A stretch of 64,000 nt of DNA from Acidimicrobiales bacterium (GTDB taxonomy: Bacteria > Actinomycetota > Acidimicrobiia > Acidimicrobiales > JAVJTC01): positions 1 to 64,000 of the forward strand of contig JAVJTC010000004.1 in NCBI GenBank assembly GCA_040219085.1, written 5' to 3'. Of this stretch, positions 60,468 to 64,000 are shown one piece after another. A program made the translations under genes and the position numbers. Each line of letters begins with the position of its first letter. Position 1 is the stretch's first letter. The notes under the pieces are model-generated. The model was not told the origin of the DNA and ran no database searches. It saw nothing but the letters and a program-made list of their open reading frames with translations.

Positions 60468-61745
60468 TCAGTGTCCCAGCCGGCGGACGCGGATGTCGGC
60501 CTGCTCACGGTGACCGGCGAAGCCCTCGAGCTCGCACAGGCGCGAGCAGTACTCACCGACGTGAACCGACGCGGCGTCGGTGTCGATGCGCTGATAGGTG
60601 TGGGTCTTGATGAACTTCCCGACCCATAGCCCGCCCGTGTAGCGGCCCGCCCTGCCCGTGGGCAAGGTGTGGTTCGTGCCGATCACCTTGTCGCCGTAGC
60701 TGACGTTGGTGCGGGCGCCGAGGAAAAGCGCGCCGTAGTTGCGCATCCTGTCGGCGAACCACTGCGGGTCCGCTGTCATGACCTGAACGTGCTCCGAGCA
60801 GATGCGCTCGGCCTCGGCGAGCAGTTCGTCGTCGGTGTCACACAGGATGATCTCTCCGTGGTCCCGCCACGCCACCGAGGCCACCTCACGCGTGGACAGC
60901 CTGGCGAGGACCTCGTCGATCATGGCCGGGAGTTCCTCGGCGACCGTCTCGCTGGTGGTGAGACACACGGCCGGTGAGGTGGGCCCGTGTTCGGCCTGAC
61001 CCAGCAGATCCACCGCGACGAGCTCCGCGTCGACGGTGTCGTCGCAGATCACGAGGGTCTCGGTGGGTCCCGCGAGAAGGTCGATGCCGACACGTCCGAA
61101 CAGCTGCCGCTTGGCCTCGGCGACGTACGCGTTGCCGGGTCCGACCACCATGTCGACGGGTTCGAACCCCTCGGCGCCGATGGCCATCATCGCCATGGCC
61201 TGCACACCGCCGAGGACGAAGATCTCGTCGGCACCGGCGAGGTGCATCGCTGTCACGATCGCCGCCGACGGTTCACCCTCGTACGGCGGGGCACACGCAA
61301 CCACGCGATCCACACCTGCGACCTTGGCCGTCAGCACGCTCATGTGCGACGACGCCACCATCGGGTACTTGCCGCCCGGGACATAGCAGCCCACGGATGC
61401 GACGGGGATGTTGCGATGACCGAGGACGACGCCGGGGATGGTCTCGACCTCGACGTCGCGCAGGGCCATCTTCTGGATCTGGGCGAACCGTCGGATCTGT
61501 GCCTGCGCGAATTCGATGTCGGCGATGGTCTCGTCGGGCAACGACGCGACGCATGCCGCGACCTCGTCGTCGCTCAGGCGGAAATCGTCAGGGTTCCAGC
61601 CGTCGAAGCGCTCTGAGTACTCCCGGATGGCGTCCCAGCCCCGAGCCTCGACGTCGTCGAGGATGGCGCCCACCGTCGCGGTCACCTGGGCCTGCGCGTC
61701 TCGACGTTGCCGTGAGCTCTGCCCGGCCTTCAGCGTGCGGATCAT
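60468..61745 (-). CDS. Histidinol-dehydrogenase-family enzyme, sulfopropanediol dehydrogenase (HpsN)-like
   Basis: 425 residues. HisD-fold motifs are [42 protein letters not shown] with the metal Gln and His, and [32 protein letters not shown] and [11 protein letters not shown] differ from true HisD and recall the dehydrogenase of 2,3-dihydroxypropane-1-sulfonate. The enzyme should oxidise an alcohol to a carboxylate with two NAD. No other histidine gene is present. A TAGGCT box six bases before the ATG suggests it is transcribed apart from the upstream peptide genes. Confidence 0.8.
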
Positions 61746-61807: not shown

Positions 61808-61951
61808 TCAGTTCCGCTCCGGGATCGGGGAGCCGGTCTCGGCGGGGACGACGGAGAACTCCCGGTCGCCCACCAGGTCGTCGATGTCACAGATCTCGGG
61901 AGGCTCGTACCCGCGTGATTCAACTGTCGGTCGCGGTTCGGAGGGTGACAT
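61808..61951 (-). CDS. Candidate RiPP precursor peptide 3
   Basis: 47 residues. GGGGAG lies six bases before the ATG. The leader-like part has GYEPPEICDIDD, followed by GDREFSVV and a tail ETGSPIPERN. It aligns with the two upstream peptides: Y-x-P-P, one Cys, an acidic stretch and E-F-x-V-V all match in order. It differs by six extra residues after the Gly-Ser at which peptide 2 ends. Last of three tandem copies; two bases separate its ATG from the stop of peptide 2. Function as a modified-peptide precursor is inferred from size, tandem copies and the RRE/kinase neighbours. Confidence 0.65.
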   Translation of the reverse strand: MSPSEPRPTVESRGYEPPEICDIDDLVGDREFSVVPAETGSPIPERN

Positions 61952-61953
61952 CG

Positions 61954-62076
61954 TCAACTCCCCACCGGGGCGAGCGCGACGACGGCGAACTCGCGGTCCT
62001 CGGCGGTCTCCACGTCGCAGATCTCAGGCGGCGTGTAGCCGTCCACGTCCGAAGGGGTCTGATCATCTGACTTCAT
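61954..62076 (-). CDS. Candidate RiPP precursor peptide 2
   Basis: 40 residues, GGAG eight bases before the ATG. Order of features: charged N-terminus (MKSDDQ), GYTPPEICDVET, acidic AED, REFAVV, and a small hydrophobic tail ending in Val-Gly-Ser at the C-terminus. Best match to peptide 3 (PPEICD and DREF shared). The single Cys is at residue 20. It lies 54 bases after peptide 1. Confidence 0.65.
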   Translation of the reverse strand: MKSDDQTPSDVDGYTPPEICDVETAEDREFAVVALAPVGS

Positions 62077-62130
62077 CGCACCATCTCCATCTCGACGCCT
62101 CGAAGGTCCATCCGTGTCGCCCGTCGATCC

Positions 62131-62253
62131 TCAACTCGCGAGGATGGCCGGATTCACCACGAACTCCTGGTCATCGCGTGAATCGACATCGATGACGCAC
62201 GGCGGCGAGTAGCTCACGGGGGTTCCCGTCTCGGGACTGTCGTCTTCGATCAT
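62131..62253 (-). CDS. Candidate RiPP precursor peptide 1
   Basis: 40 residues. The ATG overlaps the stop of the kinase-like gene (ATGA) and has AGGAA upstream, so it is translationally coupled to it. Sequence order: MIEDDSPETG, SYSPPCVIDV, acidic DSRDDQ, EFVVN, and a tail ending Leu-Ala-Ser. The Cys is two residues earlier than in the paralogues. Too short for routine gene calling, but codon pattern, ribosome site and paralogy support it. Confidence 0.65.
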   Translation of the reverse strand: MIEDDSPETGTPVSYSPPCVIDVDSRDDQEFVVNPAILAS

Positions 62254-63239
62254 TGCCGTTCCTGCGCTGGTGGCCACTGCGAAGCGACAGTTTCGCACGT
62301 CCGTTCGACGAGCGCACGCAGGGCACCAGGCAGGTTCCCGAGGCCCTCCGGGAGATGGCCCCGGACAACCGGGATGCGAGCGGCCAACGCCGCCGCCAGC
62401 GGGAACTGCACGTCGCGCGTCGCCTCGTCCACGGAGAAGGAGTTCGCGAGGATGGCGGCGACGCGGTAGCGGGTCGCGAGCTCCTCGAACGCCGGCTCAC
62501 CGCCGCGTGCCCCCAGCACCACGACCGCCCCGACGGGTGTGGGCTCCCGGTGCCGCAGTGTGGCGGGAAGCGGTCTTGTCCGCTTCGGTGGAACCCGCGT
62601 CTCATCGGGCGTGACCAGCCGGTCGAAGAGTCGCACGTCGACCGCCCCGGGCCAGGCGACCGGAACGGCTGCGGCGTCAGCGCCGGGGTCGACACGACCG
62701 TGGTCTCCCAGCGCCATGAGAACACCGTCCTCGGCGAGCACCGGCCAACCCAGTTCCGCGGCAGTGGCGGCCACCGTCGACTTCCCCCGCCGCGACGGTC
62801 CGACGAACAGGACCGCCACACCGTCGACGACGATCGCGGATGCATGGGAGAGGAAGTACCCCTGCGCCGTCAACAGCAACGGGATGGCTGCGTTGAGGAG
62901 CCGATGGCGCCAGATGGTGTCCCCGGAGGCGACGGTGACCGTGATGAGCGACGCGTGGGGATCCAGGTCGAAGCTCGTGATCCCGGGCGCGGCGAGGCGC
63001 ACGATCCCGTCGCGGAGACGTTCGGGCAACGGCGTCGTCAGGTCCACCGTCGCGTCGTCGCCGCGCCGCTCCATGGGTTCGCCGGATGCCACCTCCACCG
63101 TGATGGACCCGAGTGGGGCCGGTTCACCCACGCCGAGACGCACGAGCGGCTCGCGAGACAACACCCGGTGGCCGAACGCCGTTCCCCTCTCCACGGGATC
63201 GGGGGATGGCTCACCCACAGTCTCGTCAGGGATCTCCAT
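62250..63239 (-). CDS. HPr-kinase/phosphorylase-like protein of a peptide-modification locus
   Basis: 329 residues from ATG 63239, eight bases after the upstream stop. After a 120-residue N-terminal part comes the HPrK-like core: LSHASAIVVDG with the conserved His, Walker A GPSRRGKST (147-155) and AEDGVL with the acidic pair. The second part (VVVLGARGGEPAFEEL) continues the fold. HPrK-like proteins in lasso-peptide loci (PadeK, ThcoK) phosphorylate a C-terminal Ser of the precursor. Here the gene is coupled to three peptide genes, two of which encode a C-terminal Ser. True HPr regulation is unlikely: no PTS gene is nearby. Confidence 0.75.
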   Translation of the reverse strand: MEIPDETVGEPSPDPVERGTAFGHRVLSREPLVRLGVGEPAPLGSITVEVASGEPMERRGDDATVDLTTPLPERLRDGIVRLAAPGITSFDLDPHASLITVTVASGDTIWRHRLLNAAIPLLLTAQGYFLSHASAIVVDGVAVLFVGPSRRGKSTVAATAAELGWPVLAEDGVLMALGDHGRVDPGADAAAVPVAWPGAVDVRLFDRLVTPDETRVPPKRTRPLPATLRHREPTPVGAVVVLGARGGEPAFEELATRYRVAAILANSFSVDEATRDVQFPLAAALAARIPVVRGHLPEGLGNLPGALRALVERTCETVASQWPPAQERQ

Positions 63240-63247
63240 CTCGTCGA

Positions 63248-64000
63248 TCAGGGAGCAGCCGCGACGGGTATCCGGGACCGCGCCGACGCGTCCGGAGCGG
63301 ACGGCACCGGAACGAGGATGCCCCGTACCCGCAGATCGTCGACCGTGGCGACGACGTCGTCCTCCACCCTCGTCGGATCCGCGCCCACGAGACGGCTGCA
63401 CAGCGCTGCCGCGGCCTCCCGCACCGTGGCGCCGTCGGCGGCATCCATCACGAGGCTCGCGAACGCGTTCATCGTGGCGCGTGTGCCGTCGCGGAGCCGC
63501 ACGTACCTGTCACCGTCACGGTCCCCGCTCCAGCGCAGGTCACCGAGACGGTGGCGCCGGGCCAGAACGAGGTTCCGCAGAACGGACCTGGCGGCGGTGA
63601 CCGTGGCGGGGGTCACAGCCGGGGCGGGACCGACCGGCGCCAGGGCGACCTCGGCTGCAGGGACCTTCTCGCCGCCGGCCGGTGGCGCCGTGCCGGCCAG
63701 GAAGACGTCGGGGTCCCGGTACGGCACCACGGCGGAGTCCGATCCCGATGCTGCGTCAGCAGCCCAGTCGATGATGCGGCGGTCGGTCCACAACGAGCCG
63801 AGATTCTCCCAGCACGCTCGAACGCCGTCGTCGACCACGTTGCCGAAGGCGAAGGGCTGACCGGATTCCACGAGAACGGCGCCGTCGGGTTTGACCAGGA
63901 TCGTCCGGGGCGCATCCTTGATCCGTTCGACGATGTCGGGTGGCCCCGACAGCCTGACGTTCACAGGCGAACCGTGGCGGACACAGAACCGTGCGAACGA
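63248..64000 (-). CDS. C-terminal part of a SPASM-like/PqqD-domain peptide-maturation protein (5' end outside the window)
   Basis: The frame stays open to the right edge, giving at least 250 residues; GTG 63964 is only an internal codon option. The first visible part (VKPDGAVLVESGQPFAFGNV, then ACWENLGSLW) follows the SPASM pattern of radical SAM enzymes but lacks most of the cluster Cys. After a Pro/Ala linker the last 90 residues (VRLRDGTRATMNAFASLVMD to VDDLRVRGILVP) form a PqqD-type RRE, the module that grips RiPP leader peptides. A radical SAM core is expected upstream but is not seen, so that part is inference. Confidence 0.65.
   Translation of the reverse strand, partial: SFARFCVRHGSPVNVRLSGPPDIVERIKDAPRTILVKPDGAVLVESGQPFAFGNVVDDGVRACWENLGSLWTDRRIIDWAADAASGSDSAVVPYRDPDVFLAGTAPPAGGEKVPAAEVALAPVGPAPAVTPATVTAARSVLRNLVLARRHRLGDLRWSGDRDGDRYVRLRDGTRATMNAFASLVMDAADGATVREAAAALCSRLVGADPTRVEDDVVATVDDLRVRGILVPVPSAPDASARSRIPVAAAP

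Follow-up and report, generated by a model that had tools for sequence, protein, structure and literature searches.

RREs bind YxxP leaders, for which a consensus of [Y/W]xxPx[L/V/I/A/F/Y] has been published (PMC13381572), and potentiate HPrK-like kinases whose targets are Ser3 of the core or a C-terminal Ser (PMC10368454, PMC13381572). In the paeninodin-type and Bsf phosphorylated lasso peptides the target Ser is C-terminal in several cases, and the H, Walker A, and second Asp residues of the kinase BsfK were shown to be important (PMC10368454). JmjC and cupin enzymes are known to hydroxylate RiPP side chains alongside radical SAM enzymes (PMC12707348, PMC12257519). Here we describe a bacterial locus in which genes for a radical SAM-RRE fusion, an HPrK-like kinase, a free-standing RRE, and a JmjC-type oxygenase are found with tandem genes for short peptides that carry a YxxP motif.

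The window that we analyzed comprises bases 1 to 64000 of contig C4, from a 3.77-Mb genome in 45 contigs that is the sole representative of its family within our set of relatives; sequence past the window edge was also read (L003, C4:60001-80000). The order of transcription on the minus strand is radical SAM-RRE fusion, HPrK-like kinase, and precursors A1, A2, and A3. The fusion gene runs off the window at 64000, so that only its C-terminal part (63248..64000) lies inside; the complete gene (C4:63248-64756, L003:3248-4756) has a GTG start and encodes 502 amino acids. The kinase gene (62250..63239, minus strand, 329 aa) starts 8 nt past the stop of the fusion gene. An earlier note on this DNA had described the kinase gene as ATGA coupled; the overlap exists (62250-62253), but it joins the kinase stop to the A1 start. 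Precursors A1 (MIEDDSPETGTPVSYSPPCVIDVDSRDDQEFVVNPAILAS; 62131..62253), A2 (MKSDDQTPSDVDGYTPPEICDVETAEDREFAVVALAPVGS; 61954..62076), and A3 (MSPSEPRPTVESRGYEPPEICDIDDLVGDREFSVVPAETGSPIPERN; 61808..61951) follow on the same strand, with a gap of 2 nt between A2 and A3.

A second operon diverges from the first about 50 bp away and encodes, in plus-strand order, the free PqqD/RRE protein (C4:64808-65131) and the JmjC-type oxygenase (C4, ~65128 to 66321), whose start overlaps the RRE stop; a PPK2 gene comes next. The palindrome GACTATAGTC within the divergent intergenic region could act as a shared -10 of both operons; a promoter scan of this region gave no sigma-70 match.

The three tandem genes on the minus strand after the kinase gene are small (40 to 47 codons), and our tests confirmed that they are real, beyond chance. 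The window has two copies of the codon-level motif Y-x-P-P-x-[IV]-x-D-[IV], against none in 100 dinucleotide shuffles; the third copy, which has GTG at the last position, was recovered with a looser pattern. Every pairwise alignment among A1 to A3 beats all 5000 shuffles, and the codons differ in 22 of the 47 identical aligned residue pairs, as expected under selection at the protein level. SD-like sequences precede the starts (GGAG/GGGAG for A2 and A3, AGGA for A1) and agree with the shuffle tests in upholding the three tandem precursor genes with ribosome sites that the earlier note had reported.

We also detected two further paralogues on other contigs of the genome, both unlinked to any modifying enzyme: A4 (C34:136086-136208, MDPDVTEDSYQPPEISDIETADDSEFAVTPGNNGSQIPRN), found by a pattern search, and A5 (C29:243751-243867, MDTDTDNGEHPYEAPEICDVDPGDGEFAVVGGVLSKGA), found by a profile search (E 1.8e-5). 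Two other candidates were discarded, a loose pattern match in another genome (G263) with no small peptide ORF at the site and a weak profile match on contig C27 that overlies a larger protein gene. All five peptides share Y-x-x-P-x-[IV]-x-D-[IV]-[DE], followed by D-x-E-F-x-V, and the Y-x-x-P-x-[IV] segment matches the published RRE consensus (PMC13381572). A Ser lies 8 to 10 residues past the Phe in every precursor; A1 and A2 end with it. If E-F-x-V belongs to the leader, the core would be only the last ~7 to 12 residues. RiPP clusters in general are marked by short genes for precursors next to an RRE that binds the leader and to enzymes that modify the peptide; we find such an arrangement here, and we are highly confident that the locus is a RiPP locus, in support of the undescribed RiPP-type locus proposed from the window.

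The kinase contains the motifs SHASA and GPSRRGKS (Walker A) and has ED in place of the DD of characterized kinases. Aligned with seven other HPrK-like proteins, it keeps the H, the G..GKS of Walker A, and the second (final) Asp. Its matches to TIGR04352 HprK_rel_A (E 2.8e-4, 20.1 bits) and TIGR04355 (E 0.0023, 17.1 bits) do not reach the curated cutoff of 200 bits set for each model. The protein appears to be a divergent kinase that, apart from the ED, carries the HPrK-like signature recognized in the earlier reading. AlphaFold2 modeling from single sequences, applied to the kinase and to a C-terminal segment of 238 residues, was uninformative (mean pLDDT, 35 to 39).

Among lasso RREs of known structure, the free RRE resembles TbiB1 (2.5e-5) and, weakly, TfuB1 (0.17); it also matches PDB 9x90, a lasso PqqD-family chaperone (3.2e-6). 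The JmjC protein belongs to JmjC_2 (PF08007, E 4.8e-19), and its translation contains the HxD...H metal ligands of JmjC enzymes as HVD and a downstream H; its nearest solved relatives are the histidyl hydroxylases MINA and NO66. Homologues of this protein across the order are not next to RRE or kinase genes, so its tie to the cluster comes only from the overlap with the RRE gene, and we suggest only tentatively that it acts on these precursors.

Among the described systems closest to the locus are the linear polyphosphorylated peptides, LPP (Nat Commun 2026, PMC13381572), which likewise have a discrete RRE, an HPrK-like kinase, YxxPx[V/I/L] leaders on short precursors, and no macrolactam cyclase. 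The Ser found in all five precursors would also suit a linear phosphopeptide of this kind, for which most of the modification would fall to the kinase, and the radical SAM enzyme would contribute a minor or unrelated tailoring step. However, the SpI peptidase, NTP transferase, and MsbA-type transporter of the LPP clusters were not seen in the gene content here, and the HQxIxFETxxS motif of the Bacillota LPP leader (YxxPxVLxHQxIxFETxxS) has no match in our precursor alignment. The radical SAM-RRE fusion and the JmjC enzyme are extra in this cluster, and the radical SAM enzyme has its own RRE and is the first gene of the operon. We therefore consider an LPP-like product unlikely.

Beyond the window edge, where the earlier note had advised looking for a radical SAM core, the translation of the fusion contains CNLMCGFC (CxxxCxxC) and GGEP, the hallmarks of the superfamily, and matches PF04055 (E 1.6e-19). 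The PqqD-type C-terminal domain that had been read from the window also stands (PF05402, E 3.5e-7 for the part in the window and 8.1e-7 for the full gene). Between the two lies a Cys-poor stretch that reads as SPASM-like (ILVKPDGAVLVESGQPFAFGNV...ACWENLGSLW) and has just two Cys; no SPASM Pfam model matched the fusion at E<=1. Because this stretch lacks the cluster cysteines, we read the protein as a radical SAM-RRE fusion and not as a SPASM enzyme, and the SPASM-like C-terminus of the earlier note is not upheld as a cluster-binding domain.

The best solved relatives of the fusion, SkfB (2e-18) and PqqE, are both peptide modifying, and of the NCBIfam models it fits the StsB sactipeptide maturase family best (1.9e-31, 109.5 bits versus a cutoff of 625). 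Full-length relatives were absent from the relatives, phylum sample, genome contigs, viral contigs, and plasmids, in which matches did not extend beyond the radical SAM core and the sequence close to it; those at L051, L052, L054, and L055 read as mycofactocin type.

The StsB match, SkfB as the nearest solved structure, and the single Cys in four of the five precursors could point to a sactipeptide, in which the radical SAM enzyme would link the Cys to an alpha carbon to give a thioether peptide. One Cys each, as the earlier note stated, is true of A1 to A3, but this residue is displaced by two positions in A1, replaced by Ser in A4, and located within or beside the RRE-binding segment, so a role for it is unsupported. 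The absence of SPASM cysteines and of a SPASM model match also weighs against such chemistry. The lack of conservation of the Cys among the five paralogues argues against a sactipeptide, a reading that we rejected on this ground and regard as quite improbable. The Cys-free A4 offers a direct test of the target residue of the radical enzyme.

We found neither a dedicated peptidase nor an adjacent transporter at the cluster; the nearest ABC-2 pair is ~8 kb off, beyond biotin-type genes. The HisD-like dehydrogenase encoded 62 bp downstream of A3 (60468..61745, minus strand; PF00815, E 1.5e-130) was considered as a tailoring enzyme and rejected, given its homologues throughout the order (best, 46%), a second hisD-like gene in the genome (C2:95940, 38% identical), and no tie to the cluster; it probably lies outside the cluster. 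A comparison with PHROGs returned nothing informative.

Without transporter and peptidase genes, and with two paralogues away from any modifying enzyme, A1 to A3 might be taken for short regulators, or for other proteins with no part in a RiPP pathway, whose genes neighbor those of the enzymes by chance. Against this stand the ATGA overlap with the kinase gene, the RRE-binding motif in all five peptides, and the two RREs of the cluster, and we find such a coincidence very hard to believe.

Neither an asparagine-synthetase-like lasso cyclase nor a B2 peptidase was found among the main ORFs in 57.8 to 76.3 kb of the contig, so the absence of both noted earlier holds over this range, and a standard lasso reading was rejected because they are missing. 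A degenerate or unusual lasso cluster, served by a cyclase and a peptidase from other loci of the genome, would account for the YxxPx[IV] leader, the TbiB1-like discrete RRE, and the HPrK-like kinase, and in L039 the same genome has an RRE gene by a large protein reading as asparagine-synthetase-like that may be a lasso locus, but the cyclase and B2 are absent nearby, the aligned precursors show no evident conserved pattern for ring formation, and known lasso synthesis has no place for a radical SAM-RRE fusion, leaving this explanation scarcely credible.

The genome as a whole is apparently RRE rich, with 13 PqqD/RRE domains (PF05402 matches). Three PqqD/RRE proteins of this genome (L040:7640-8086 on C33, L122:7847-8284 on C20, and L123:8538-8960 on C6) have a leader-like C-terminal tail, Y-x-[PT]-P-[AE]-L...D-M...LDP, and their genes adjoin HPrK-like or glycosyltransferase genes; from the tail motif, they may be RREs with a tethered substrate or decoy. 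At L126:8430-9045 (C34) and L124:7788-10959 (C6), near a stand-alone PqqD/RRE gene, we also observed small proteins that combine a twin-arginine-like signal with basic amphipathic C termini resembling each other (FWLRALFNWLFRLFGR; FYLRRLLHILRRIFGGFGR).

Searches of other genomes returned no orthologous cluster in the relatives, the order, the phylum sample, genome and viral contigs, or plasmids, and the strict peptide pattern had no hit in further genomes among 397 of the order. Since the searches covered samples, and the patterns for the collection scan came from a single sequence, such a cluster may still exist elsewhere. Within the class, kinase-RRE pairs are common. Three loci (L042, L045, and L084) encode a kinase, an RRE, two JmjC/Cupin proteins, NTP_transf_5, and tandem Y-E-x-P precursors, with no radical SAM match; L083, on a short contig, has a kinase match and one Y-E-x-P precursor. 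The gene sets of the three loci support a functional link among RRE, kinase, oxygenase, and YxxP peptides. Their JmjC proteins are of another subfamily, not close to that of our cluster. The earlier note had looked to homologous peptides beside related kinase and PqqD genes in other genomes as evidence; none were found, only these analogous peptides with a different motif.

The tandem precursors of the three loci (L042:6700-8871, L045:7545-8240, and L084:880-1950) follow Y-E-x-P-x-[VI]-x-x-R-T/S and have internal repeats in L042 and L045; they possibly represent a second, perhaps undescribed, RiPP family. Elsewhere, three tandem JmjC-type matches occur by a QueE-like gene (L156:8043-11110, G044:C9), with no RRE or kinase match at that locus.

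We consider it likely that the locus is a RiPP biosynthetic cluster in which the radical SAM enzyme, kinase, and JmjC enzyme each have a part. From the gene content, motifs, and paralogues, we infer the modified residues, the order of steps, and the removal of the leader as follows. The Y-x-x-P-x-[IV] segment would dock on both RREs. The fused RRE would offer the precursor to the radical SAM core. This core would act without SPASM auxiliary clusters, and its modification would most likely fall within the conserved acidic/E-F-x-V segment or immediately past it. The free RRE would pass the precursor to the kinase, for which the conserved Ser 8 to 10 residues past the Phe is, by analogy with the Ser phosphorylated by paeninodin-type and LPP kinases, a fairly probable target. 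The JmjC enzyme could hydroxylate a side chain on the same peptide. Since the cluster encodes no peptidase, we propose that the leader is cut off by an unlinked housekeeping peptidase. An RRE-bearing radical SAM enzyme next to a free RRE would offer a system in which to ask how two recognition domains share a leader. We know of no joint demonstration of phosphorylation and radical SAM chemistry on one ribosomal peptide.

Among known systems, SynChlorMet clusters, as named in the NCBIfam models, comprise a radical SAM/SPASM pair (ScmE and ScmF), a PqqD relative (ScmD), and ScmC. ScmC weakly matches our kinase, and all ScmC, ScmE, and ScmF matches are far under their cutoffs; SynChlorMet has two SPASM enzymes, whereas this cluster has one SPASM-less fusion. 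The StsB/StsC systems share a radical SAM enzyme with a PqqD-type RRE and a YxxP-type leader (PMC12710340), but their SPASM cysteines and conserved Cys are not found here. Biphenomycin clusters (PMC12707348, PMC12257519) also combine a radical SAM enzyme, a JmjC/cupin hydroxylase, and an RRE protein with one precursor; theirs is a B12-dependent radical SAM enzyme with an MNIO and no kinase. The Y-E-x-P loci described above share the kinase, RRE, JmjC/Cupin proteins, and tandem precursors beginning Y-E-x-P-x-[IV], and differ in having two JmjC-type genes, NTP_transf_5, and repeat-containing precursors (YERPRVEDRTTVTEPLN). Paeninodin-type and Bsf phosphorylated lasso peptides (PMC10368454) share an RRE-assisted HPrK-like kinase and a precursor Ser as its target, whereas their lasso cyclase and B2 peptidase are missing here. 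In our tests, the locus lacks features that define lasso peptides, LPP, SPASM enzymes, and sactipeptides. Because the combination of radical enzyme, kinase, and probable oxygenase is unmatched in the searched genomes, the cluster probably makes a peptide natural product that is new. It is possible, though we would not yet favor it, that the locus defines a new RiPP class in which the precursor is modified by a SPASM-less radical SAM enzyme that bears an RRE itself, phosphorylated by an HPrK-like kinase via a second RRE, and hydroxylated by a JmjC enzyme, with unlinked orphan precursors matured in trans. The half of the locus formed by kinase and RRE probably acts as its counterparts in the LPP and paeninodin systems do.
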